Program-made: the position numbers and the translations under genes
Shown here: positions 1 to 13,168 of the stretch, in pieces
Layout: each line of letters starts with the position of its first letter
How positions within the stretch are numbered: the first letter of the stretch is position 1
Notes under the pieces: generated by a model
What the model was told of the DNA's origin: nothing
Databases searched by the model: none
The model's input: the letters and a program-made list of their open reading frames with translations, nothing else
Assembly: GCA_013360215.1 (NCBI GenBank)
Contig: JABWCP010000018.1
Span: 1-62,016 of the forward strand
From: a bacterium
GTDB taxonomy: Bacteria; CLD3; SB21
Reading direction: 5' to 3'
DNA length: 62,016 nt

Positions 1-99
1 TCTCGTCGAATGTTCTCGTCGAATGTTCTCGTCGAATGTTCTCGTCGAATGTTCTCGTCGAATGTTCTCGTCGAATGTTCTCGTCGAATGTTCTCGTCG
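1..99. repeat. 13-bp tandem repeat, about 7.6 copies
   Basis: The unit TCTCGTCGAATGT is repeated head to tail seven times without error, followed by an 8-base partial copy. The unit length is not a multiple of three, so each added or lost copy would shift any reading frame crossing it. The tract starts at the first base of the window, so its true length is unknown. The frame of the AraC-like gene that follows is closed by a TAA at 100-102, so the repeat is probably untranslated leader or degraded coding sequence. Confidence 0.95.
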
Positions 100-117
100 T
101 AACGGAGGAGGAAGGGA

Positions 118-447
118 TTGGAAAAAGAGGGAACGAGAGGTGTCACAGAATTGGCCGAGAGCGCATGTATGTGCGAACGCCACCTCCGCCGAAAAACGAA
201 AGAAAAATTCGGCTTACCACCGCACCGGCTTTTAGAGAATATACGATTGGCCAAAGCTCTCGAAGCCATGCATGAACAACCTGAAGTCACGTTGCTTCAA
301 ATCAGTCAAATTGCCGGATATACATCATACAAAACATTTTATCAGGCTTTTACGCGGAGATTCAAAGTGGCACCGTCGGAAGCGATATGGCGTATAAAAC
401 AAAATCCAAGAATTATGGCAGATGCCTTTCAGAGAAAATTGATATAA
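118..447 (+). CDS. AraC-family DNA-binding domain protein, possibly truncated
   Basis: The 109 residues are almost exactly one AraC/XylS-type domain with two helix-turn-helix motifs. The first covers about residues 9-30 (VTELAESACMCERHLRRKTK). The second covers about 60-85, with the family pattern ISQIAGYTSYKTFYQAFTRRF. No sensor, receiver or sugar-binding domain is attached, although members of this family normally carry one at the N terminus. The TTG start is preceded by a strong GGAGGAGG at 103-110, so a short stand-alone protein could be made. The other reading is that this is the 3' remnant of a longer regulator (for example a receiver-AraC or hybrid sensor), cut off by the 13-bp repeat. 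It lies 188 bp upstream of the RiPP locus in the same direction, so a regulatory link is possible but not shown. Confidence 0.7.
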   Translation: MEKEGTRGVTELAESACMCERHLRRKTKEKFGLPPHRLLENIRLAKALEAMHEQPEVTLLQISQIAGYTSYKTFYQAFTRRFKVAPSEAIWRIKQNPRIMADAFQRKLI

Positions 448-635
448 GAAAGTCGACCAATTAATGAATGTCAAACAGGTTTTCATTTAAGGCAAAATAG
501 CACATTTAGCGACTACCATTTAAATATATTGTTAAACAAAAATAAGCGATACAGCTTTAGCGAAAACAATTAAAAAACCATTTTTTTATTAATACAAAAG
601 CTTATTTCAAATTCTATACTAAGGAAGGGGACAAC
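448..635 (+). promoter_or_regulatory. AT-rich leader of the RiPP locus
   Basis: This 188-bp AT-rich gap is the likely promoter region of the peptide cassette. It ends in an unusually strong ribosome binding site (AAGGAAGGGG, 622-631) just before the ATG at 636. At 541-551 it holds AATAAGCGATA, which recurs exactly in both arms of the inverted repeat that flanks the precursor gene. That makes it a candidate operator. No convincing -35/-10 pair or Bacteroidetes-type -33/-7 pair was found. Confidence 0.4.
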
Positions 636-1958
636 ATGAAAATGTTCAGCCTGTTACTAACATTGGTTTTTTTACTATTGAATTGTAAAGTTATAGCACA
701 AAGTCAAACTATAGAACAAGGCGCCATGGTAGACCTGATAAATCCTAGATCATTGGATCATCCTATTTATTTATCGTTCAAAGATGGAGACTATCTTACA
801 TCAATTATTGAATGTGATAAATGGGATTCTGTTTATAGAGGCACAAATTCAGAAGATGCCTTTATGGAACAAGAAGCTTACTACAATTCTTTTGTAGGTA
901 ATTACAAAAAAGCACTTAACAATTTCGACAAAATTAATGCCAAATGGATTAAGCAGCTCGATACCACTAACTTTCTTGACAGATCTTTTTTGTCAGCAAA
1001 AAAGCTGGATGCTGTAAATGAGATTATAAGAGAAGCGCAAAACCGCCAAATTACGATTGTTAATGAAGCACATCATGTACCGCAGCATCGTGCCTTCATA
1101 TCTTCACTACTTAAGCCTTTATATGAATCCGGCTATCGTTACTTTGCAACAGAAATGCTAACAGATAATATTGATACGGTAAAGAAGAACGGTTACGTCA
1201 GCTTTCAACAGAACGGATTTTATCCGAATGAACCCGTATATGCTAATTTAATTCGAAAGGCAATTGAAATTGGATATACTTTAGTCGGTTACGAAGATAC
1301 TGTGAACTGTGATTTTGACCCAGTAAATCCATTTCGCTGTTTAAATCAGCGAGAACAAAACCAAGCTAAAAACATAGCCAATCTAATCTTAAAGAATAAT
1401 TCAAATGCAAAAATCCTTATACATTGTGGATACCAACATGCAGATGAAGTTGAACATCAATCACCTAAGGTCAAAACAATGGCAGCGCATTTAAAAGAGT
1501 TAAGCAATACCGATCCCTTGACCATTGATCAAACGGTTATGAGTGAACACAGCTTAGTTAATTTTGAAAACTCATATTACAGATATGTTCAAGATAGTTT
1601 AAAAATAAATTCACCAGCAATATTTAAAACGATTAATGGTTATTGGGTTGATGACACTAAACGCGGGTTTGTCGACATGCAAGTTTTTCATCCAAGGACA
1701 AACTATATAAACGGTAGACCAAACTGGCTCATTAAAGAAAATTACATCCTCACTTTACCGGATTTTGATATTTCCTCTTTTCCTTTTTTGGTACAAGCAT
1801 TTAAAAAGTCTGATAAAACTAATGCAATTCCAATGGATCAGTTTTTAGTTGATTCAAGGAAAGAAAAAATTGCCGTAGCAGTACCCAAAGGGTATTATCG
1901 AATACGCATGATTAACAGCAAAGGCACTATTCATGAATTCGAAGTGAAAAATCCTTAG
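636..1958 (+). CDS. Secreted erythromycin-esterase/ChaN-like protein, RiPP-locus copy 1
   Basis: The protein has 440 residues and a signal peptide (hydrophobic residues 3-17, cleavage near 21-23), so it acts outside the cytoplasm. The core resembles the EreA/ChaN/TIKI fold. NEAHH at 143-147 matches the Glu-x-x-His region of that fold, ATEM near 171-174 supplies a second acidic residue, and LIHCGYQH at 261-268 supplies a C-terminal histidine motif. The N-terminal 110 residues have no recognised domain. A clear paralogue lies at 4453-5754 with the same motifs in the same order, and the pair brackets the precursor and both maturases. Possible roles are cleaving an ester in the product, immunity, or a scaffold or receptor role; none can be chosen from sequence. 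The gene has a strong Shine-Dalgarno and is much richer in AT than the copy-2 gene. Confidence 0.75.
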   Translation: MKMFSLLLTLVFLLLNCKVIAQSQTIEQGAMVDLINPRSLDHPIYLSFKDGDYLTSIIECDKWDSVYRGTNSEDAFMEQEAYYNSFVGNYKKALNNFDKINAKWIKQLDTTNFLDRSFLSAKKLDAVNEIIREAQNRQITIVNEAHHVPQHRAFISSLLKPLYESGYRYFATEMLTDNIDTVKKNGYVSFQQNGFYPNEPVYANLIRKAIEIGYTLVGYEDTVNCDFDPVNPFRCLNQREQNQAKNIANLILKNNSNAKILIHCGYQHADEVEHQSPKVKTMAAHLKELSNTDPLTIDQTVMSEHSLVNFENSYYRYVQDSLKINSPAIFKTINGYWVDDTKRGFVDMQVFHPRTNYINGRPNWLIKENYILTLPDFDISSFPFLVQAFKKSDKTNAIPMDQFLVDSRKEKIAVAVPKGYYRIRMINSKGTIHEFEVKNP

Positions 1959-1962
1959 ATAT

Positions 1963-2192
1963 TATCGCTTATTCTAAGTCTTCACAATTAAAACGGAGAC
2001 AAACATGAAAAACGAAAAAAAAGAACAGAAATTAGAACAATTCGAAGACTATAAACTCCAAAAGGCAAACTCAATTTCTGGCGGAAAAGCAAACACACTC
2101 TTGACAACACACGTGTGCCAAGGCGGTTGGGATGATATTACCGACTAATTAACTTAATCATGTAAAACCAAACTCTCTTAGAATAAGCGATA
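1963..2192. repeat. Perfect 16-bp inverted repeat flanking the precursor gene
   Basis: The left arm TATCGCTTATTCTAAG (1963-1978) is the exact reverse complement of the right arm CTTAGAATAAGCGATA (2177-2192). Between them lies only the 47-codon precursor gene with its ribosome binding site. The left arm begins 5 bp after the stop codon of copy 1. The right arm is followed by six T residues and then the ATG of the ATP-grasp gene at 2199. It could be an invertible segment, a pair of operators, or the base of a long RNA stem that isolates the precursor message. The sequence alone does not decide. Confidence 0.9.
2005..2148 (+). CDS. Grasp-with-spasm RiPP precursor peptide
   Basis: A short gene of 47 codons starts with ATG at 2005, after ACGGAGAC (1993-2000), and ends with TAA at 2146-2148. 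The leader (residues 1-27) is lysine- and glutamate-rich and ends SISGG, the double-glycine processing site used by C39 peptidase exporters such as the one encoded at 5757. The predicted core is the last 20 residues. It contains three threonines at 31, 34 and 35, one cysteine at 38, the sequence QGGWDD at 39-44 and a C-terminal ITD. Thr/Ser hydroxyls and Asp/Glu carboxylates are the groups that graspetide ligases join into ester rings, so Thr31, Thr34, Thr35 and Asp43, Asp44, Asp47 are the candidate ring atoms. The SPASM enzyme could act on the same peptide. Its place directly before the ATP-grasp gene fits the cassette. Confidence 0.85.
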   Translation: MKNEKKEQKLEQFEDYKLQKANSISGGKANTLLTTHVCQGGWDDITD

Positions 2193-2198
2193 TTTTTT

Positions 2199-3215
2199 AT
2201 GATTCTTATTTTCAGCATAGACGGAGGTGATGGGTCTACATCCCCAGTAATGGATTGGATAACTTATCTTGGCGCTGATAGAATTAGAGTGAACGTTGGA
2301 AATCTTAATAAAGATGTAAAATTTTCAATACATTTAGAACCAAACGGTATTACTACTGAATATCGAAATATGGATATAAATTTTTCATCCAAAGAAGTTA
2401 GTGCCGTATGGTTTAGACGAGAAGAGCGAATGTTCAGCGGGCTTGATACATCGTCAATATCCAACATTCGAATCAAAGAATCAGTTGATAGATTTTTGCA
2501 ACGAGAAGTAGAGGTCATTAAACAAGCTCTCTACTTACAATTTGACGATAAAGTATGGCTGTGTGATCCATCGTCGGGCAACCTTAACAAGATTAATGCT
2601 CTACAAAAAGCATGTGACGCAGGCATACGAATCCCAACCACTTTAATTACCAATAAGAGAACTGAATTGGAACGTTTTAAAAATAAACATAGAAAAATTA
2701 TATGCAAATGCTTTAGACAAGGAGGTGTTATTCAGTTAGACGGCTCAACATATGGAATGCATACTGAAATACTGTCTGATGATATTATCTCTAGTACCGA
2801 TGATGTTTTGTTTCCTGCTTTTGTACAAGAATACATTCCTAAAAAATACGAATTGAGGATTTTTTTTATTGAAAGTAACTTTTTTCCCATGGCAATTTTT
2901 TCACAAAACGACCCTCAAACATCAGTTGATTTTAGAAAATATAATTATTTAAAACCCAATCGAAATACTCCTTACATCTTACCTCACGAGATCCAAGAAA
3001 AATTAAAAACTCTTATGTTAAGCCTGAAACTCAATACGGGTTCAATTGATATGATCAGGGCAACCGACGGAAGTTACGTGTTTCTAGAGGTCAATCCTGG
3101 TGGGCAGTTTGGGATGGTCTCTGAACCGTGTAACTATTATTTAGAGAAACGAGTCGCTGAATATTTAATAAATCAATCAAAAAAATATTATGAGTCAAAA
3201 GTTTTTAGAAATTGA
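2199..3215 (+). CDS. gwsG: ATP-grasp peptide maturase of a grasp-with-spasm system
   Basis: This 338-residue protein belongs to the MvdC/MvdD-like ATP-grasp ligases that activate Asp/Glu side chains of a precursor and join them to Thr/Ser or Lys as macrocyclic esters or amides. Visible landmarks are the N-terminal pre-ATP-grasp segment with VWFRRE (70-75), the nucleotide-binding lysine region KIICKCF (166-172), the hinge and substrate region VQEYIPKKYELR (209-220), SIDMI (282-286), and the metal-binding LEVNPGGQF (297-304), where Glu and Asn would bind magnesium. Length and motif order match the family. It follows the precursor by 50 bp. No good Shine-Dalgarno precedes it, and the inverted-repeat arm ends only 6 bases before its ATG, so its translation may depend on that structure. 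The end overlaps the next small gene by 26 bp. Confidence 0.88.
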   Translation: MILIFSIDGGDGSTSPVMDWITYLGADRIRVNVGNLNKDVKFSIHLEPNGITTEYRNMDINFSSKEVSAVWFRREERMFSGLDTSSISNIRIKESVDRFLQREVEVIKQALYLQFDDKVWLCDPSSGNLNKINALQKACDAGIRIPTTLITNKRTELERFKNKHRKIICKCFRQGGVIQLDGSTYGMHTEILSDDIISSTDDVLFPAFVQEYIPKKYELRIFFIESNFFPMAIFSQNDPQTSVDFRKYNYLKPNRNTPYILPHEIQEKLKTLMLSLKLNTGSIDMIRATDGSYVFLEVNPGGQFGMVSEPCNYYLEKRVAEYLINQSKKYYESKVFRN

Positions 3216-3399
3216 TAAATTCATCAATGAGCCAACACTCATTTCAAAACTTCCAATAACATTTAAGCTACTTGAACAATCTACTTATGATCAATTAAGT
3301 ACTATCTCTCCGGTACGAAGTGATTTTCATCAAGAAAATAATTATGGAATAAAATTTTTTTATAAAACAATTTCAAAGCCATTTAACAATCCTTTTTAA
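3190..3399 (+). CDS. Small protein of unknown function inside the RiPP cassette
   Basis: I do not recognise this 69-residue protein. It has no signal peptide, no membrane segment, no cysteine and no double glycine, so it is not a second precursor of the same type. It begins inside the last codons of the ATP-grasp gene (26-bp overlap, different frame) and ends 10 bp before the SPASM gene, so a translated gene here would fill an otherwise empty gap of about 190 bp. There is no clear ribosome binding site, but the cassette as a whole uses weak ones. It could be a leader-binding helper or a chance reading frame in AT-rich DNA. Confidence 0.4.
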   Translation: MSQKFLEIDKFINEPTLISKLPITFKLLEQSTYDQLSTISPVRSDFHQENNYGIKFFYKTISKPFNNPF

Positions 3400-3409
3400 T
3401 TTTAAACTA

Positions 3410-4423
3410 ATGAGCGTTTTTTTTAAAATGCATGGCAACTGTATTCCGGTCAAAGGGGCAGTTAAAAGCGTAATATGCGATCTACAGCGTCATGAGCTAA
3501 AACAAATTTCAAATGACGTTTTCGAATTATTGGAGTTACTAAAGAATCACCCTGTAGAATATCTAAAGAATATTTACACTACTGAATTTATAGATGAATC
3601 GTTAGAGTTTTGTGTTACAAACGAATTCGGCTTCTACACTGAAGAGCCTTGGCTATTTCCAGAAATAGATTTGTCGTGGGATTCACCGTATCAAATATCA
3701 AATGCAATTATTGATTCAAGCAAACAATCAAAACACAACTATAAAAAAATAATTGACGAGTTAGATGAACTTGGATGTGAAACAATACAGTTTAGATTTT
3801 ACTTTTGCCCTCAATTATCTTTTCTAAACCACATACTTCTTCTTACGCAGGTAAGCAGGCTAAAGTCCATTCAACTTATATTAAAAGATGAAAATTTAAT
3901 AACTCAAAAAGAACTCGAAGAAGTATGCAGAGCTAACCCAAGAATTGAAAGCATTTTCTTACATTCATCACATCTTTTTAGGATCATTGATAAAATTGAA
4001 GGAAGTCACGCCAACATAATCTATTTTACTGATAGAATTGAATCGCATGATTCATGCGGAAATATTAATAAAATGTATTTTTGTATTAATATCCCAATGT
4101 TTACTGAAGCTCACAAACTGAATACATGTCTGAATCGCAAAATATCAATTGACGTTAATGGCGACATAAAGAATTGTCCTTCTATGACGCGTCACTTTGG
4201 AAACATACACAACACTTCATTACATAGTGCAATTATTCAAAAAGAATTTAAAGATTTATGGCTTATAAATAAGGATCAAATTGAAGTTTGTAAGATTTGT
4301 GAATTTAGATATGTTTGCACCGATTGCCGTGCTTTCATTACAGAACCAAGCAACATTTATTCAAAACCTTCAAAATGCACTTACGACCCTACTATTGGAA
4401 AGTGGTTAGATGAGACCCAATAA
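3410..4423 (+). CDS. gwsS: SPASM-domain peptide maturase of a grasp-with-spasm system
   Basis: This 337-residue partner of the ATP-grasp enzyme has three parts. Residues 1-50 (VKGAVKSVICDLQRHEL) resemble the small leader-binding start of these maturases. Residues 105-235 look like a TIM-barrel body. Residues 240-323 form a textbook SPASM domain with cysteines at 240, 256, 294, 297, 303, 306 and 323, including NCPS and CKICEFRYVCTDCR. The CX3CX2C motif that binds the S-adenosylmethionine-cleaving cluster of radical SAM enzymes is absent: the cysteines at 11, 23, 68, 123, 133 and 173 are not spaced that way. It therefore has the auxiliary cluster domain without the obvious catalytic one. It should act on the peptide encoded at 2005, but the chemistry is unknown. 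Confidence 0.85.
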   Translation: MSVFFKMHGNCIPVKGAVKSVICDLQRHELKQISNDVFELLELLKNHPVEYLKNIYTTEFIDESLEFCVTNEFGFYTEEPWLFPEIDLSWDSPYQISNAIIDSSKQSKHNYKKIIDELDELGCETIQFRFYFCPQLSFLNHILLLTQVSRLKSIQLILKDENLITQKELEEVCRANPRIESIFLHSSHLFRIIDKIEGSHANIIYFTDRIESHDSCGNINKMYFCINIPMFTEAHKLNTCLNRKISIDVNGDIKNCPSMTRHFGNIHNTSLHSAIIQKEFKDLWLINKDQIEVCKICEFRYVCTDCRAFITEPSNIYSKPSKCTYDPTIGKWLDETQ

Positions 4424-4452
4424 ATTTAAAATGGCTACATAAATGAGGAAAG

Positions 4453-5754
4453 ATGAAATCGTTTGTATTACTTGTCTTGCTTTCATTAAACCAAATATAT
4501 GCGCAGTATTATCTCCCACCGGCAATTATGGATTCGATTCGGGATATTGATAGGTCACTATCTTCTGATCGTAACTATATAGCCGCTTTGAATCGGTTAA
4601 ACCGAATTCATGCAATGCCACAATATGCCGGGCAGCCTATATTGTTTAATCATTGGGGCTTGTATAATTCTTTAGTGTCCGATTATTCGACGGCAATTGC
4701 TTTTTTTGACTCCATTGAGCTTCTTCGTCAGAGTCAACGCCGTACCACATCATTGCCGCCAACCGGTTTAACCTTTGATACAAGCCAAATACGCCCTTAT
4801 CCCGCGATGGAAACCATACTTCGCCTTGCAAAGAATAATTCCGTCGTAATGATCAATGAGCGTCATCACATGCCTATGCATCGGGCTTTTATTTTGGAAC
4901 TTCTGATTCGCCTCAAAGCGCTCGGATATACCCACTATGCTGCCGAAGGATTGCAAAATCACGATACAATCACAAGCCCTACAACATACCCTGCGATAGG
5001 AAAGACAGGATATTATGTAAATGAGCCTGTTTTTGCTGAATTGATACGAACTGCCATTCTGTTGGGTTATAAGATAGTCGCCTATGAAACAACAAGCTCG
5101 GCATCTCCCGAATCCGATCCTATCAAAAACCAAAATAAAAGGGAAAAAGAACAGGCTGAAAATTTGTACAATAAAACTTTGCTCCAAGACCCTCATTGTA
5201 AAGTTTTAGTCCATGTCGGTTATGGTCACAACGATAAAATGGGAGTTGGCGGCTGGATACCTATGGCATCCTACTTCAAAACTATAAGCGGCGTCGAGCC
5301 TTTGTCCATTGATCAAATTGAAATGTTTGAACACCGTGTTTCGGATTTTGAAAACCCCTATTACCGGTTTATTTCCGGCATGATTTCGCAGCCTACAGTT
5401 TTTATTGAAAAATCTTCGAGCACATCTTGGGCGCACCTGCAACCCGGCAACTTCGATTTGGGAATATGCCACCCCAAAGAAACTTATGTTCATGGACGCC
5501 CGACATGGAGAAACATAGCTAACCGCTATCGGATGTATGATCTACCCAACGAAAAAAGAACAATTACAAAAGGTTTACTCCAGGCGTTTTATCATGATGA
5601 GCCTACGGATGCTGTTCCAGCAGATCAGATCGTTTTTAATACCGGCACTTGGCAGACGATCCCGTGTTTATTATTAAGACCGGGGAAATATCGCTTCCGA
5701 TTAATAAGCGGGGAAAGCGATGCATCATCGGAATGGGTGGATACGGTCAAATAA
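4453..5754 (+). CDS. Secreted erythromycin-esterase/ChaN-like protein, RiPP-locus copy 2
   Basis: A 433-residue paralogue of the 636-1958 product, with a signal peptide cleaved near residue 17-18 (IYA-QYY). The shared motifs are NERHH at 135-139 (copy 1 has NEAHH), AAEG at 163-166, NEPVFAELI at 190-198, YET near 211, and LVHVGYGH at 252-259. All potential catalytic Glu and His residues are kept. The start has GAGGAAAG eight bases upstream. The stop codon lies 2 bp before the exporter ATG at 5757, so the gene is probably co-transcribed with the exporter. Its base composition is close to the chromosome, unlike copy 1. This suggests it belongs to an older exporter module, or that the AT-rich part was added later. 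Function remains open. Confidence 0.75.
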   Translation: MKSFVLLVLLSLNQIYAQYYLPPAIMDSIRDIDRSLSSDRNYIAALNRLNRIHAMPQYAGQPILFNHWGLYNSLVSDYSTAIAFFDSIELLRQSQRRTTSLPPTGLTFDTSQIRPYPAMETILRLAKNNSVVMINERHHMPMHRAFILELLIRLKALGYTHYAAEGLQNHDTITSPTTYPAIGKTGYYVNEPVFAELIRTAILLGYKIVAYETTSSASPESDPIKNQNKREKEQAENLYNKTLLQDPHCKVLVHVGYGHNDKMGVGGWIPMASYFKTISGVEPLSIDQIEMFEHRVSDFENPYYRFISGMISQPTVFIEKSSSTSWAHLQPGNFDLGICHPKETYVHGRPTWRNIANRYRMYDLPNEKRTITKGLLQAFYHDEPTDAVPADQIVFNTGTWQTIPCLLLRPGKYRFRLISGESDASSEWVDTVK

Positions 5755-5756
5755 TC

Positions 5757-7958
5757 ATGAGCCGCTTTCCGATATATCTTCAGCATGACAAAATGGACTG
5801 CGGCCCGGCTTGTATCCGTATGATAACAAGATTTTTTGGACGTACAGTCAGCCCGGAAAAATTACGCTGCATCACCTATGCCTCCAAGGGAGGCACCTCT
5901 CTTTTGAATTTGTCGGAGGCCGCAGAATCTTTGGGTTTTAGAACATTAGCGGTCAAGGTATCTCTTCAAAAGCTTCAGAAAGCGCCTCTGCCTTGTATTG
6001 TGTTTTGGCAGCAGCGTCACTTTATCGTAGTCTATAAGATCGGTCGAAGATATATCCATGTTGCCGATCCGGCGCACGGGATTCTAAAATACCGTCACGC
6101 AGACTTCGTATCCGGATGGTATAGTGACCGATCAAATGAAGGCGAGGGTCAGGGCATCGCCCTGCTCTTCGAACCAACGCCGGCATTTTACGAATCGGAG
6201 GATGATTTTGAAAAATCGTCGAATCCCAATAAAAAGGGCTTTGGCCTTTTATGGCCGTATTTGCGATCGCATCACAAGCTGATATTTCAGCTCGGTTTAG
6301 GTTTTTTATTGGGAAGCATATTACAGCTCATATTTCCGTTCCTCGCCCAATCTATGGTAGATATGGGTATTCACAATCAGAATATCGGCTTTGTATATAC
6401 CATACTGTTAGCGCAACTGATGCTTTTTCTCAGCCGAATAACAGTCGAAAGTATCCGGCGCTGGATACTCCTACATATCAGCACACGACTACAGGTTTCC
6501 CTCATATCCGATTTTCTGAGGAAGCTGATGCGTCTGCCTGTGGCTTTTTTTGATGCCAAACAAACCGGCGACCTGATGCAGCGCATAAATGACAGCCATC
6601 GGATAGAAAACTTTCTCACGGTGACTTCGCTCAGTTTCGTTTTTTCTATATTCAATCTTTTTATCTTCGGTGCCATTATACTTTTATACAGCCCTTTCAT
6701 ATTTCTGATTTTTACAACTTTCAGCGCCGTTTCGATAACATGGATCATGTTTTTTATGAAAAAAAGGCGTGATCTGGACTACAAACGGTTTGACCGTATG
6801 TCCGAAAACCAGCAGGGCATACTTCAGATCATCATGGGTATGCAGGAAATCAAACTCAGCGGATCGGAAAAGCAGAAACGATGGAAATGGGAATCGCTAC
6901 AGGCAAAACTTTTTACCATTAGCCGTAAAGCACTGGGTTTGGGGCAGGTGCAGGAGACCGGCACGCTTTTTATCAATGAATTTAAAAACATTATGATCAC
7001 ATTCATCGCGGCCAAAGAAACGATAGACGGACATATCACGCTCGGTGCGATGATGGCGATACAATATATGATCGGTCAACTGAATGCACCTATTGATCAG
7101 ATGATCGTTTTTTTGCAACACGCCCAAGATGCCAAACTGAGTTTAGAACGGTTATCAGAAATACATACCCACGACGATGAAGATCATGAAAGTGATAACA
7201 GCGCTCAACTTCCTCAGGAAAGATCCATAATGCTGGATCAGGTTTCATTTCAGTATGAGGGCCCTCACTCGCCCTACGCGCTCAAAGATGTCCACCTCCC
7301 GATACACGAAGGAAAAATAACGGCTATTGTCGGTGAAAGCGGTAGCGGCAAAACAACTTTACTTAAACTTTTGCTCAAGTTTTATATCCCGACAGAGGGA
7401 AAAATAAGCGTCGGATCGGACGCACTATCGCAGATCAGCGCTTCTTTTTGGCGTCAGCAGTGCGGCGTCGTCATGCAAGACGGGTATATTTTTTCGGATA
7501 CGATCGCTCACAATATCGCTCCTGCGGATGAAACCGTAGATCACCGAAGGTTGATACAAGCCGTCGAGGTTGCTAATATTCGGACATTCATTGAATCTTT
7601 ACCTCTGCGATACAATACTAAAATCGGAAATGACGGACTCGGACTCAGTCAGGGTCAAAAGCAACGCATTCTCATCGCCCGCGCAGTTTATAAAAATCCG
7701 CAATATTTGTTTTTTGATGAAGCTACCAGTGCGCTGGACGCTACTAACGAACGGATCATTATGTACAATCTTCAGCGTGTCTTCCAAAACAAAACCGTCG
7801 TCATCATCGCGCACCGACTCAGTACCGTGCGTAACGCCGATCAGATCATCGTACTGGAAAAAGGGAGTGTGGTGGAATCCGGCTCACATATTGAACTGAC
7901 CCAACAACGAGGCGTTTACTTCGAACTGGTACGCAACCAATTAGAACTCGGGAATTAG
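5757..7958 (+). CDS. Peptidase C39-containing ABC exporter
   Basis: This 733-residue protein cleaves double-glycine leaders and exports the peptide through the inner membrane. Residues 1-130 are a C39 peptidase with the catalytic triad Cys15 (MDCGPAC), His88 (RHFIVV) and Asp104 (VADPAHG). Residues of about 165-310 carry the membrane segments. The nucleotide-binding domain follows, with Walker A GESGSGKTT (near 525), signature LSQGQKQR (near 628), Walker B YLFFDEATSALD and the AHRLSTV switch. An in-frame start 108 bases earlier is possible but would add residues unrelated to the family and overlap the previous gene; the ATG at 5757 begins right at the peptidase domain. With the SISGG leader of the 47-aa peptide and the adjacent HlyD gene, it forms a type I-like secretion route. 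Confidence 0.93.
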   Translation: MSRFPIYLQHDKMDCGPACIRMITRFFGRTVSPEKLRCITYASKGGTSLLNLSEAAESLGFRTLAVKVSLQKLQKAPLPCIVFWQQRHFIVVYKIGRRYIHVADPAHGILKYRHADFVSGWYSDRSNEGEGQGIALLFEPTPAFYESEDDFEKSSNPNKKGFGLLWPYLRSHHKLIFQLGLGFLLGSILQLIFPFLAQSMVDMGIHNQNIGFVYTILLAQLMLFLSRITVESIRRWILLHISTRLQVSLISDFLRKLMRLPVAFFDAKQTGDLMQRINDSHRIENFLTVTSLSFVFSIFNLFIFGAIILLYSPFIFLIFTTFSAVSITWIMFFMKKRRDLDYKRFDRMSENQQGILQIIMGMQEIKLSGSEKQKRWKWESLQAKLFTISRKALGLGQVQETGTLFINEFKNIMITFIAAKETIDGHITLGAMMAIQYMIGQLNAPIDQMIVFLQHAQDAKLSLERLSEIHTHDDEDHESDNSAQLPQERSIMLDQVSFQYEGPHSPYALKDVHLPIHEGKITAIVGESGSGKTTLLKLLLKFYIPTEGKISVGSDALSQISASFWRQQCGVVMQDGYIFSDTIAHNIAPADETVDHRRLIQAVEVANIRTFIESLPLRYNTKIGNDGLGLSQGQKQRILIARAVYKNPQYLFFDEATSALDATNERIIMYNLQRVFQNKTVVIIAHRLSTVRNADQIIVLEKGSVVESGSHIELTQQRGVYFELVRNQLELGN

Positions 7959-7961
7959 AAG

Positions 7962-9242
7962 ATGCCCAACGATATTGAACCCCTTGAACGTATCCACAGC
8001 GACAGTTATGACGACGTGATGAATTACGAGCCCCATTGGTTGATACGGAGGGGTTCGTTCATATTGCTATTGGTCATTATTTTTTTGATTACCGTCAGCG
8101 GATATATACAATATCCGGATATATTACGCGGACAAATCACGCTGATCAGCGATCAGCCCACATTGGAGGTTGTCGCGCAATCCACAGGCCGCGTGAAATT
8201 GTTTGTCAAAGATCGCGACTCAGTCAAGGCCGGGCAACCTCTGGCTATGATCGAAAACCCTGCCGACTTTGCTTCCATTCAGAAATTGCGCTTATTTTTA
8301 GATTCTGCATCTTCTCAAAGCGATAGTTACGTAATGATAGATACAGCGTTACAACTCGGAGAACTGCAGACTTTTTATTCGGAAGTCATGCAGAATTATA
8401 AAGAATTAGCATCGTTTAAAGAGATCAATTATGAAGTAAAAAAAATCAACTCCATTCGGCAACAGATCAGCGCCTATTATAATTTGGGCGACCGACTGGA
8501 TGATCAGATCAAACTTCTGAAATTAGATGTGATGAAAGCCGAAAAAGATTTTGAAGTTAATAAATCTTTACATGAACGCGGACTACTTTCGGATGTCGAG
8601 CTCTCCGGTTATCAGTTCCAGTTAAACCAGAAGAAACTTGCGATGGAAGAAGCGCAGAAAGAAACTATCCGTAATTCGATCGTAGTTTCTGAAAATCTCA
8701 AAAACATATTAGACATGGAATTTCAAAATCAGGACAAAACGGCCCGGTACCTGATTCGCATACAGGAGTCACTGAGCAAACTCAAGAGCGAATTTTCAGC
8801 ATGGGAAAAAAAATACTGGATAACCAGTCCCATTAGCGGTGAAGCCATCTACAATGATGTATGGACAGACGACCGATTTGTAAAACTGGGCCAGGAGATC
8901 ATGACGATCAATCCGAAAACAAATCGTATTCGCGGACGCATAAAATATGAAGGCCCCGGACTCGGAAAAGTTGTTCCCGGACAGGAAGTTAAAATCAAAT
9001 TAGAAAATTATCCTTTTCAGGAATTCGGTATCGTATCGGGCGTCGTGGAAAATATTTCAGCCGTATCCAAAGATAAATCTGTAGTCATACAAATCACACT
9101 CCCTCAACAATTAAAAACATCTTTGGGTGCCTTATTGGAATACAAACAAGAAATGCAAGGAACATCCGAAATAATAACCGAAAACAGCACGTTGCTCGAA
9201 AGAGTTTTTCAACAACTGCGCCAAATCACCCAATATCAGTAA
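7962..9242 (+). CDS. HlyD-family secretion adaptor
   Basis: The 426-residue protein starts 3 bp after the exporter stop. It has a short cytoplasmic N terminus, one membrane anchor at about residues 28-46 (SFILLLVIIFLITVSGY), then a biotinyl-lipoyl-like half (LEVVAQSTGRVKLFVKDRDSVKAGQPLAMI). A long coiled-coil hairpin spans about 110-290, and the second half-motif and beta-barrel domain follow (ITSPISGEAIYN, LGQEIMTI, GKVVPGQEVKIKLENYP). Such adaptors bridge an ABC exporter to a TolC-type outer-membrane channel. No TolC homologue is encoded nearby, so the channel must be supplied from elsewhere. It completes the peptide export pair. Confidence 0.9.
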   Translation: MPNDIEPLERIHSDSYDDVMNYEPHWLIRRGSFILLLVIIFLITVSGYIQYPDILRGQITLISDQPTLEVVAQSTGRVKLFVKDRDSVKAGQPLAMIENPADFASIQKLRLFLDSASSQSDSYVMIDTALQLGELQTFYSEVMQNYKELASFKEINYEVKKINSIRQQISAYYNLGDRLDDQIKLLKLDVMKAEKDFEVNKSLHERGLLSDVELSGYQFQLNQKKLAMEEAQKETIRNSIVVSENLKNILDMEFQNQDKTARYLIRIQESLSKLKSEFSAWEKKYWITSPISGEAIYNDVWTDDRFVKLGQEIMTINPKTNRIRGRIKYEGPGLGKVVPGQEVKIKLENYPFQEFGIVSGVVENISAVSKDKSVVIQITLPQQLKTSLGALLEYKQEMQGTSEIITENSTLLERVFQQLRQITQYQ

Positions 9243-9586
9243 ATTAATTTGTATTTACTCGTGGTTTTCCAATACATAACTTCTTAATCTTATAAATTTG
9301 AAAACTATTTGATCTCCCATTGGAAAATCTCTATGATAATATCATGCGTGGTTACTTGATATAATCTACTAATCTGAAAAACAATCACCCCCTCTTTTTT
9401 GTTATCCCTCGCTCGTCTTTCACCGATTCATAACGACATAACCCCAACGATTTCATCGTTTGATAACCGACAAAAGTCATTTTTTACGATGATACGAATC
9501 ATTCCAAAGTATTCGGATTTATAATAGACTGCTCTTAGTCGGGTGCCTTGTGCACGGCCGGCTATTGTCCAACCAACGAGGCTGTT
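9243..9586. other. 344-bp gap between the RiPP locus and nifJ
   Basis: No gene is visible here. A loose inverted pair, TTTTCCAAT at 9265-9273 and ATTGGAAAA near 9320-9328, and a short palindrome (AACGATTTCATCGTT, 9446-9460) are present, neither followed by a T-run. TAAATTTG at 9293-9300 resembles the Bacteroidetes -7 element (TAnnTTTG) and TATAAT near 9359 resembles a -10 box, but neither has a convincing upstream partner. The nifJ promoter probably lies here. Confidence 0.4.
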
Positions 9587-12500
9587 ATGTCCAATACCAA
9601 ACGTGCGATGGTTACGCTGGACGGCAATGAAGCCGCCGCTTACGTAGCCCACAAACTCAGCGAAGTCATAGCCATCTACCCCATCACGCCGTCTTCGGCG
9701 ATGGGCGAATTTTCCGATGAATGGTCCAGTAAAGGAAAAACCAATCTTTGGGGAACCGTGCCGCTCGTCATGGAAATGCAGAGCGAAGGCGGTGCAGCGG
9801 GAACTGTGCACGGCGCATTGCAGACCGGCTCACTCACGACGACATTTACCTCATCGCAGGGACTTCTGCTAATGATTCCCAATATGTATAAAATCGCAGG
9901 CGAACTCACCGCGACAGTATTTCACGTCGCGGCGCGGGCAATAGCTTCACAAGCACTTTCGATATTCGGTGATCACTCCGACGTGATGTCCGTTCGCGCT
10001 ACAGGGTGGGCCCAACTGAGTGCGCATTCCGTACAGGAAGTGATGGATATGGCGCTCATCGCGCATGCTGCCACGCTTCGTGCACGGGTACCGTTCATTC
10101 ATTTTTTTGATGGATTTCGTACGTCGCACGAAGTCATGAAAGTAGAACAACTTACCGACGAAGACATGCTCGCCATGATCGATGATCATCTCATCCGTGC
10201 GCATCGCGAGCGCGGTCTTTCACCGGAACATCCCGTCATGCGGGGCACGGCGCAAAATCCGGACGTATTTTTTCAAGGGCGTGAAGCCGCCAATCCCTAT
10301 TATCAAAAATGCCCCGCGATCGTTCAGGAAACTATGGATCGTTTTGCGAAACGCACGGGCCGCGCCTACAAATTATTTGATTATTTCGGCGCTCGGGATG
10401 CGGAACATATTATCGTCGCGATGGGTTCGGGCGCTTTGACGGCACAAGAAACTGCCGCATTCCTGATCGGACAAGGCCATAAAGTGGGCGTGGTCAAAGT
10501 TCACCTCTATCGCCCGTTTTCGATCGAACATCTTATCGCGGCTTTTCCCAAAACCGTTCGCACGATCGCCGTGCTGGATCGCACCAAAGAACCGGGCAGC
10601 GCGGGTGAACCGCTGTATCAGGATGTCATCACGGCGCTTACGGAAACTTTTATCGACGGCAAATTGCCCTTTGCTATGCCCCGTGTGATCGGTGGGCGCT
10701 ACGGCTTATCATCCAAAGAGTTTACGCCGGCCATGGTCAAAGCCGTTTACGATGAATTGCAAAAAACTCTTCCTAAAAATCATTTTACCGTAGGCATTCA
10801 TGATGACGTATCGCATTTGAGCCTGGATGTGAATCCCGATTTTTCGATTGAACCCCAAGATGTCGTGCGGGCATTATTTTACGGACTCGGCGCCGACGGC
10901 ACTGTCGGTGCGAATAAGAACTCCATCAAAATCATCGGCGAGGATACCGATAATTTCGCCCAAGGTTATTTTGTGTACGATTCTAAAAAATCCGGTTCTA
11001 TCACCGTTTCCCATTTGCGATTCGGCCCGAAACCTCTGTTTTCCTCGTATCTGGTGACCCGTGCTAATTTTATTGCGTGCCATCAGTTTAGTTTTCTTGA
11101 AAAATACGATATGCTCAAATATGCCGTCGAAGGCGGTACGTTTTTACTCAATAGCCCCTTTGACGAAAATGAAGTGTGGGATCAATTGCCGCTCATCGCA
11201 CAAAAAGAAATTACGGAAAAAAAATTACGCTTTTTTGTGATCGACGGTTACCGCGTGGCCAAAGAAACCGGCATGGGTGGACGATTTAATACTATCATGC
11301 AAACTTGTTTTTTTGCCATATCCGGCATTCTCCCGCGCGATAAAGCGATCGAAGCGATCAAACACGCCATTCAAAAAACCTACGGTAAAAAAGGCGATGA
11401 AATCGTACGCATCAACTTTAACGCCGTAGATCAGACATTGGCCAATCTCAAAGAAGTCAACTATGCCGGAAGACCTTTAACCGATCGTGCGATGCGACCT
11501 CCGGTGGATCCTCTGGCGCCGGACTTCGTCAAAGACGTAACCGGACGTATAATACTAGGCGACGGCGACACATTGCCGGTAAGCGCCATGCCGGCCGACG
11601 GGACATTCCCGACCAATACCGCACGTTGGGAAAAAAGAAATATCGCCCTCGAAATCCCGGTCTGGGATCCCGCCGTGTGTATCCAATGCAACAAGTGTGC
11701 ATTGGTATGCCCGCACGCAACGATCCGCGCCAAAGTGTTTCCAGAAGCTGCGCTCGATGGTAAGCCGGAACATTTCAAAGCCGTACCATATAAAGGCAAA
11801 GAATTTCCCAACAGTCTTTATACCATACAAGTGGCCCCCGAAGACTGCACCGGCTGTGGCTTGTGTGTTGATGTATGCCCGGCAAAAAACAAACAGGAAA
11901 CCCGCCTCAAAGCGATCTATATGCAGCCGCAAAGCCCGATTCGCGATCAAGAACGCATCCATTGGGAATATTTTCTTCGCCTCCCGGAAGCCGACCGTAC
12001 ACAGGTGCCGCTCAATACCGTCAAAGGTTCTCAGTTTTTACAACCGCTATTCGAATTTTCCGGTGCATGCAGCGGCTGCGGCGAAACGCCATATCTCAAA
12101 CTGATCAGTCAGCTTTTCGGCGATCGCGCAATGGTCGCCAATGCGACCGGCTGTTCCAGCATCTACGGCGGTAATCTGCCTACGACACCTTGGGCGCAAA
12201 ATAAAGACGGGCGCGGCCCGGCGTGGAGCAATTCGCTTTTCGAAGATAATGCCGAATTTGGTCTCGGTTTCCGTCTCACGGTAGACAAACAAACAGCGTT
12301 TGCACAAGAACTGCTCTATCGCCTCGGCGATTCATTGGATAAAGAGCTTATCACATCATTGATCGCGTCACCCCAAAAAACCGAAGCCGATATGCAAGCG
12401 CAACGCGCACGCGTTCAAGTTCTTAAAAACCGTCTTACTTCATTATCACATCCCGATGCCAAACGCTTACTCGACGTTGCCGATTTTCTTGTCAAAAAAA

Positions 12501-13168
12501 GCGTCTGGATTGTCGGCGGCGACGGCTGGGCCTACGATATCGGTTACGGCGGTTTGGATCACGTACTCGCATCCGGACGCAATGTCAATATCATCGTACT
12601 GGACACCGAAGTTTATTCCAACACCGGCGGCCAGGCGTCTAAATCCACCAATCGCGGCGCGGTTGCTAAGTTTGCCGCCTCTGGAAAACGTTACTCCAAA
12701 AAAGATCTCGGCCTCATGGCGATGAGCACCGGTCATGTTTATGTCGCACAGATCGCGATGGGCGCCAACGACGCACAGACTGTCAAAGCGCTATTGGAAG
12801 CCGAAGCTTACGACGGACCTTCGCTCATCATCGCCTATAGCCACTGCATCGCGCACGGTATTAATATGGGTCAGGGTATGCGCCAGCAAAAATCTGCCGT
12901 CGATTGCGGTCATTGGTTATTGTACCGTTTCAATCCGGATCATGTGTCACTGGGTCAAAACCCTCTCACATTGGATTCCAAAGCACCTACGCTTGCATTC
13001 AAAGATTATGCCCTGAGCGAAACACGTTATAAAATGCTGGCCATGACGGATCCGTCGGCATCGGAGAGTTTGGTCAAACAAGCGCAACAGGACATACTTC
13101 AAAAATGGCACTTCTACGAACAAATGGCGAAACTGCATTACAACGGTCAAAACGAAGAGAAACATTAG
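9587..13168 (+). CDS. nifJ: Pyruvate:ferredoxin (flavodoxin) oxidoreductase
   Basis: This single-chain 1193-residue enzyme converts pyruvate and CoA to acetyl-CoA and CO2, passing electrons to ferredoxin or flavodoxin. All domains are present in order: the N-terminal gamma/alpha-type pyruvate domain (IYPITPSSAMGE near 30), the CoA-binding region, and two 4Fe-4S ferredoxin motifs near residues 697 (CIQCNKCALVCP) and 753 (CTGCGLCVDVCP). The thiamine-diphosphate domain carries ACSGCGE near 828, NATGCSSIYGG, and GGDGWAYDIGYGG with the metal-binding NTEVYSNTGGQ-like DTEVYSNTGGQ. The length is typical of the fused bacterial form. I chose the ATG at 9587 over an in-frame codon 39 bp earlier because the family begins there. 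The enzyme indicates anaerobic or low-potential metabolism. A DHOD-like gene follows 49 bp downstream. Confidence 0.96.
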   Translation: MSNTKRAMVTLDGNEAAAYVAHKLSEVIAIYPITPSSAMGEFSDEWSSKGKTNLWGTVPLVMEMQSEGGAAGTVHGALQTGSLTTTFTSSQGLLLMIPNMYKIAGELTATVFHVAARAIASQALSIFGDHSDVMSVRATGWAQLSAHSVQEVMDMALIAHAATLRARVPFIHFFDGFRTSHEVMKVEQLTDEDMLAMIDDHLIRAHRERGLSPEHPVMRGTAQNPDVFFQGREAANPYYQKCPAIVQETMDRFAKRTGRAYKLFDYFGARDAEHIIVAMGSGALTAQETAAFLIGQGHKVGVVKVHLYRPFSIEHLIAAFPKTVRTIAVLDRTKEPGSAGEPLYQDVITALTETFIDGKLPFAMPRVIGGRYGLSSKEFTPAMVKAVYDELQKTLPKNHFTVGIHDDVSHLSLDVNPDFSIEPQDVVRALFYGLGADGTVGANKNSIKIIGEDTDNFAQGYFVYDSKKSGSITVSHLRFGPKPLFSSYLVTRANFIACHQFSFLEKYDMLKYAVEGGTFLLNSPFDENEVWDQLPLIAQKEITEKKLRFFVIDGYRVAKETGMGGRFNTIMQTCFFAISGILPRDKAIEAIKHAIQKTYGKKGDEIVRINFNAVDQTLANLKEVNYAGRPLTDRAMRPPVDPLAPDFVKDVTGRIILGDGDTLPVSAMPADGTFPTNTARWEKRNIALEIPVWDPAVCIQCNKCALVCPHATIRAKVFPEAALDGKPEHFKAVPYKGKEFPNSLYTIQVAPEDCTGCGLCVDVCPAKNKQETRLKAIYMQPQSPIRDQERIHWEYFLRLPEADRTQVPLNTVKGSQFLQPLFEFSGACSGCGETPYLKLISQLFGDRAMVANATGCSSIYGGNLPTTPWAQNKDGRGPAWSNSLFEDNAEFGLGFRLTVDKQTAFAQELLYRLGDSLDKELITSLIASPQKTEADMQAQRARVQVLKNRLTSLSHPDAKRLLDVADFLVKKSVWIVGGDGWAYDIGYGGLDHVLASGRNVNIIVLDTEVYSNTGGQASKSTNRGAVAKFAASGKRYSKKDLGLMAMSTGHVYVAQIAMGANDAQTVKALLEAEAYDGPSLIIAYSHCIAHGINMGQGMRQQKSAVDCGHWLLYRFNPDHVSLGQNPLTLDSKAPTLAFKDYALSETRYKMLAMTDPSASESLVKQAQQDILQKWHFYEQMAKLHYNGQNEEKH

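Follow-up and report, generated by a model that had tools for sequence, protein, structure and literature searches.

The window analysed here is a 62,016-nucleotide stretch of bacterial DNA, in which eight plus-strand open reading frames (ORFs) follow one another with short gaps or overlaps (Table 1). The second of these is the 47-codon ORF of interest, whose translation reads MKNEKKEQKLEQFEDYKLQKANSISGGKANTLLTTHVCQGGWDDITD; it lies 46 bases from the preceding gene and 50 bases from the ligase gene, and a GGAG motif stands a few bases 5' of its ATG. Residues 23-27 of the peptide form the sequence SISGG with the Gly-Gly at 26-27, and the 20 residues after Gly27, KANTLLTTHVCQGGWDDITD, are the predicted core, in which we find Thr31, Thr34, Thr35, Thr46, a single Cys38, Trp42, Asp43, Asp44 and Asp47. 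The initial annotation had described a small gene with a Gly-Gly site, threonines, one cysteine and an Asp-rich end, and the translation of the ORF confirms this description. Since 99 ORFs of at least 30 amino acids overlap positions 1..12000, an ORF of 47 codons is not remarkable by itself, and the case for a precursor peptide rests on its context, directly upstream of a TIGR04192 ligase and within the row of eight plus-strand genes. The ORF is real and sits within a tight one-strand gene row. The peptide matched no family in NCBIfam (0), and its sole match in Pfam was ComC (E 0.14), which is below the cut-off. The large ORF that comes next, from 9548, looks by eye like a pyruvate:ferredoxin oxidoreductase and we take it to be unrelated. 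The contig opens with a perfect 13-bp repeat, TCTCGTCGAATGT, which is present in 7.6 copies at positions 1-99 and reaches up to the truncated-looking ORF of an AraC-type regulator (118-447). Scans for promoters and terminators gave nothing of use, and nothing useful came from PHROGs.

Table 1. Genes of the plus-strand row that contains the candidate precursor, in window coordinates.
Feature	Position	Strand	Remarks
Secreted EreA/ChaN-fold protein A (predicted)	636..1958	+	34% identical to protein B; signal-peptide-like N-terminus by eye
Precursor peptide gene	2005..2148	+	47 aa + stop; predicted leader 1-27 with SISGG end
ATP-grasp peptide ligase, gwsG type	2199..3215	+	TIGR04192 284.9 bits (cut-off 230); predicted ester/amide ring former
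LPL-type small protein, 69 aa	3190..3399	+	Overlaps end of ligase gene; KLPITFKLL and FFYKTIS motifs
SPASM protein, gwsS type	3410..4423	+	TIGR04193 310.9 bits (cut-off 175)
Secreted EreA/ChaN-fold protein B (predicted), possible FnIII-like C-terminal domain	4453..5754	+	AlphaFold model, mean pLDDT 64
C39 peptidase ABC exporter	5757..7958	+	Pfam Peptidase_C39 (E 9e-34), ABC_membrane, ABC_tran; predicted GG cleavage and export
HlyD-type periplasmic adaptor of exporter	7962..9242	+	PF13437 (E 1.4e-9); TIGR01843 82 bits, below cut-off 208.65

The neighbouring genes give the system its type. Among solved structures the nearest relatives of the ligase are the graspetide synthetases AMdnB (E 6.8e-26) and CdnC (E 4e-23), and its sequence FLEVNPGGQF aligns with FLEINPTGEW and FIEINAAGEF of these two enzymes; the signature of graspetide-synthetase-type ATP-grasp ligases is kept; in a ligase tree its place was not settled. 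The cut-offs of TIGR04192 and TIGR04193, the two grasp-with-spasm families, are passed by the ligase and the SPASM protein, respectively, and a GG-type precursor, with a leader score that is weak in absolute terms, adjoins the ligase. A ligase with the graspetide-synthetase signature and a C39 exporter in the same row support the earlier proposal of a GG-leader precursor in a graspetide-type system, and judged from its neighbour genes the ORF is a precursor of the known "grasp-with-spasm" type of graspetide. We compared the window with 33 related loci, three on plasmids and 30 from a genome collection, all chosen by their SPASM gene (the plasmid locus of Hymenobacter, L028, was omitted from the alignment used in the genome scan), and a ligase match lies near the SPASM match in 33/33. 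The order ligase, LPL, SPASM is the same in the gwsG/gwsS loci of Elizabethkingia (L026, L027) and in L028, which also share one or more GG-type precursors upstream and often the C39 exporter, although the window differs from them in having one short precursor and two EreA/ChaN-fold proteins. Identities to these plasmid copies are 27-36% for the ligase and 30-32% for the SPASM protein, and to the other loci 26-44% and 27-47%, counted on the best tblastn pieces. A SPASM-associated ligase, an LPL, and GG precursors of diverse sequence that contain Thr/Ser and Asp/Glu are likewise shared, going by the descriptions in the sections consulted, with graspetide group 14 (PMC13097080) and with branch 5 (PMC8939145), which we infer to be one and the same. 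We consider the ORF to be, with good though incomplete confidence, the precursor of a secreted graspetide from a group 14/branch 5 operon.

The sequence of the peptide itself contributes less to this assignment. After removal by eye of six ORFs (two in L027 and one each in L039, L043, L049 and L052), which preceded all leader, core and motif counts, 52 candidate GG precursors remained, and 29/33 loci have any. These predicted precursors are very diverse, as is described as normal for branch 5 in the part of PMC8939145 consulted. The initial annotation had staked its proposal on homologues with a conserved leader, and here it is partly contradicted: a search with the precursor sequence found no orthologous precursor, and the likeness of the leader to others of the grasp-with-spasm type is weak. 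With an ungapped profile made from the leaders of the homologous loci, the leader has the top score of 19 GG sites in short window ORFs, and 3/191 GG sites in all window ORFs score that high, itself counted among them; its score of -1.4 is far under the 5% point of the training set (+6.5), and a conserved leader is not claimed. One may then ask whether the ORF is a substrate at all, or at most a relic, with the genuine precursor encoded at another place in the genome. The weak leader likeness, the short core and the several precursors often found at other loci would speak for this, whereas the ORF has the correct position, a ribosome site, the GG site and a Thr/Asp core, and its leader outscores those of the other short window ORFs, and we regard a precursor located elsewhere, looked for in one search with this sequence, as highly improbable. 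As for the core, its TTx7DD pattern is shared among 48 distinct cores by L049 alone (2/48), a locus whose ligase is 42% identical to that of the window. By shuffling, this pattern, which was spotted post hoc, is expected in 0.21 cores on average and reached two in 12/500 rounds. The alignment of the window precursor with that of L049 is marginal, 50/2000 shuffles scoring equally high, and L049 is not the top-scoring row. A more general Thr/Asp spacing barely exceeds chance (31/48 cores against 25.7 expected).

The SPASM protein consists of an RRE-like domain at about residues 3-84, a shortened barrel and a SPASM part with eight conserved cysteines. The motif CX3CX2C, expected after the first strand of the barrel in a radical SAM enzyme, is absent there, and it is equally absent from the barrel of 38/38 homologous ORFs, fragments included; the only match among the homologues, in L042, lies inside the SPASM part. 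In the stretch covering strand 1 and the following loop, 0/31 aligned rows have more than one Cys and 3/31 have one. By comparison, control SPASM-containing ORFs, drawn from 23 loci of which four gave no suitable ORF, carry CX3CX2C within their first 60% in 19/19 cases. Presumably NCBI omitted "radical SAM" from the name of the TIGR04193 family deliberately. The cysteines expected for SPASM auxiliary clusters are all there in the window protein (C216, C240, C256, C294, C297, C303, C306 and C323), each of them kept in 28-30 of the 31 rows, one row (L057) being cut by a contig end. Such conservation in most members is a hint that Fe-S clusters remain of importance. Seven of the eight are lost in L028 and four of the eight in L056. 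The Hymenobacter plasmid that carries L028 holds ten 47-aa precursors at 3830-8026 beside its SPASM protein lacking seven of these cysteines.

The layout of the SPASM protein is shown by a confident structural model (pLDDT 91.8, from 28 sequences). Residues 3-84 resemble the RREs of TbiB1 (Z 9.3, rmsd 2.8, 77 aligned) and TruD (Z 8.4, rmsd 2.4, 82 aligned), and the N-terminal domain matches MccB at Z 8.0. The rest of the model matches SuiB, CteB, PqqE and TigE with Z 12-13 and rmsd 4.8-7.1, for example PqqE with Z 12.8 (rmsd 4.9, 212 aligned) and SuiB with Z 12.2 (rmsd 4.8, 221 aligned). The protein thus has the RRE-like domain, barrel and SPASM part in common with radical SAM/SPASM maturases that possess an RRE (SuiB, CteB, and PqqE with PqqD), but differs from them in lacking CX3CX2C and in its predicted shortening of the barrel. 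Because the motif is missing and the model has an RRE-like domain and a shortened barrel, we read the protein as a putative partner that binds the leader and descends from a radical SAM/SPASM maturase, which seems the simplest reading of sequence and model; it would probably be no radical enzyme but a remodelled relative, retained to bind the substrate or to act as a scaffold. In the sections consulted, Makarova et al. present the SPASM partner of branch 5 as a radical SAM enzyme (PMC8939145), and its role is left open in those of PMC13097080.

These observations bear on the earlier idea that Cys38 and Trp42 are sites for the SPASM enzyme, that is, that it works by redox or radical chemistry and forms a second crosslink involving one or both residues. 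In favour of this idea are the eight conserved cysteines of the SPASM part and the one Cys in the window core; Cys occurs in 34/52 candidate cores, and C-C, C-O or thioether bonds have been proposed for branch 5 (Makarova et al., PMC8939145, as far as the sections consulted go). The barrel motif, on the other hand, is missing from the whole sampled family and present in all controls, in 11/29 loci with predicted precursors every predicted core is free of Cys, and the losses in L028 and L056 touch the very cysteines in question while L028 retains its ten precursor genes. A second crosslink is for these reasons very unlikely in our estimation, and Cys38 as a general reaction site finds no support in the predicted cores of the family. 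That the sampled family lacks the cluster motif argues that the job of the SPASM protein differs from radical chemistry and is probably substrate recognition. If it is indeed a recognition partner, product predictions in which these peptides receive thioether or carbon crosslinks would be wrong, and members without most of the SPASM cysteines, such as that of Hymenobacter, are a good place to probe the role of the partner. The grasp-with-spasm type was already known, though chemically uncharacterised; what would be new, on the evidence of sequences and a model, is a correction at family level of the supposed SPASM chemistry.

Between the ligase and SPASM genes lies the gene of the small LPL-type protein. 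A profile made from the small proteins at the same place in the other loci, the window protein being left out, was run against 1428 window ORFs and picked it alone below the inclusion threshold, at E 3.7e-6, and its location just 5' of the SPASM gene agrees with that of the LPL-type small proteins in the sections consulted of PMC8939145. In the 33 inter-gene small proteins an FYKxIS-like motif occurs 14 times against 0.23 expected, and a motif P-h-x-h-x(1-2)-h 21 times against 7.7 expected from shuffles. The latter is a looser form of our own choice, because the motif exactly as published, Phhx(1-2)h, only slightly exceeds chance (11/33 against 8.0 expected). Neither Pro motif is found in any of the leaders (0/44). 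The motif data fit, without proving it, a ligase-docking element supplied in trans. An interaction of LPL with the ligase was raised as a possibility by Makarova et al. (PMC8939145), and RiPP enzymes have been activated in vitro by a leader added in trans (PMC13003496), both according to the sections consulted. We tentatively suggest, as an idea more doubtful than the assignment of the operon, that recognition is split: the ligase-docking element, Phhx(1-2)h in microviridin-type precursors, would have moved to LPL and act in trans, and the RRE of the disarmed SPASM relative would hold the GG leader. If so, ligase, LPL and SPASM protein would form one maturase complex taking very diverse cores, and this would account for the unusual diversity of the precursors.

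Alternatively the ligase alone may modify the precursor, with SPASM protein and LPL serving regulation, stability or export and not substrate presentation. Ligases working alone can be regarded as the norm, because, according to the sections consulted of PMC13097080, no characterised graspetide had set a precedent for partner dependence before rosaritide and corallotide. The same sections describe every member of group 14 as having a SPASM protein (PMC13097080), and ligase, small protein and SPASM protein co-occur in the loci sampled here, which were picked by their SPASM gene; together with the RRE-like fold in the model of the SPASM protein, this leaves a ligase without partners unlikely in our view.

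Under the preferred reading, in which the SPASM protein presents the substrate, maturation would begin in the cytoplasm, where its RRE-like domain, perhaps with LPL, would hand the precursor to the ATP-grasp ligase. The ligase would then esterify Thr side chains with Asp side chains. Such Thr-Asp ester rings are the best prediction for this core, most likely joining Thr34 and Thr35 with Asp43 and Asp44; one or two rings are expected and a third may form. The computed [M+H]+ of the core is 2188.034 unmodified and 2170.023, 2152.013 and 2134.002 after one, two and three rings. The C39 exporter would cleave behind Gly27 and, with HlyD, export the 20-residue product, and the secreted EreA/ChaN-fold proteins would probably bind or act on the exported peptide, for example by hydrolysis for self-protection or turnover.

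These two secreted proteins are unusual accessories. Neither gave a Pfam family at E up to 1 or anything at a useful score in NCBIfam, and protein B also has a signal-peptide-like N-terminus by eye. The assignment to the EreA/ChaN fold comes from the low-confidence model of protein B, whose central domain matches EreC (Z 15.1), HopBA1 (14.7) and ChaN (14.6), with FtsY as the next match outside the family (Z 8.9); its C-terminal part matches FnIII chains at Z about 6. In the alignment the pair has a motif NExHxxPxHR, which we take to be ChaN-like. The pair would have its fold in common with the EreC/ChaN superfamily, and differs from it in having no Pfam match. Relatives lie directly 3' of the SPASM gene in 4/33 loci (L032, L037, L044 and L046), and in Kordia (L114) another adjoins a second pair of ligase and SPASM genes, so that relatives beside a SPASM gene are known from five other loci. 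Most relatives occur away from such loci: among 249 Flavobacteriaceae genomes, 15 have the EreA/ChaN-like family and 11 have TIGR04193 (E up to 1e-30), both are found in two and they are adjacent in one. The view of this family as a dedicated component is weakened by its occurrence together with TIGR04193 in only these two genomes. Replacement of the DUF6624-like protein, which is frequent among the sampled loci and of which none was seen in the window, by EreA/ChaN-fold proteins was rejected, as three of the four loci (L032, L044 and L046) have both. According to the sections consulted, gammaproteobacterial ligase loci include a distant relative of erythromycin esterase, for which Makarova et al. 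suggested a role in modification or resistance (PMC8939145); two EreA/ChaN copies in one such operon, and evidence on the fold, were not encountered in the literature searched. The pair suggests a possible ester-ring hydrolase and provides a lead for self-protection. A further peptide locus may have decayed in L110 (positions 4066-8653), where an EreA/ChaN-like gene lies amid pieces of exporter, HlyD and DUF6624-like genes.

Loci with SPASM homologues are almost all from Bacteroidota, and one contig (L049) is titled Aminicenantes. In the class of the L049 genome, TIGR04192 was found in 1/142 genomes, which is the L049 genome itself (10.4 Mb, perhaps a mixed bin). PMC8939145, in the sections consulted, calls branch 5 highly specific for Bacteroides, yet among the 98 genomes searched around and including that of the window no other relative passes the TIGR04193 cut-off. 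The term "grasp-with-spasm" was not found in our literature search, and for TIGR04193 the only paper among the matches listed was PMC8939145. L044 has a second SPASM match at 12598-12843, limited to the C-terminal part of the protein (46% identity) and located within or beside a DUF6624-like gene. In a genome of the window's own family a SPASM gene is reduced to a frameshifted C-terminal remnant (L118, G004:C93, positions 4573-4691), upstream of an exporter 62% identical to that of the window, an HlyD and a DUF6624 protein. This is a decayed locus, and the system was therefore probably once more widespread in this family.
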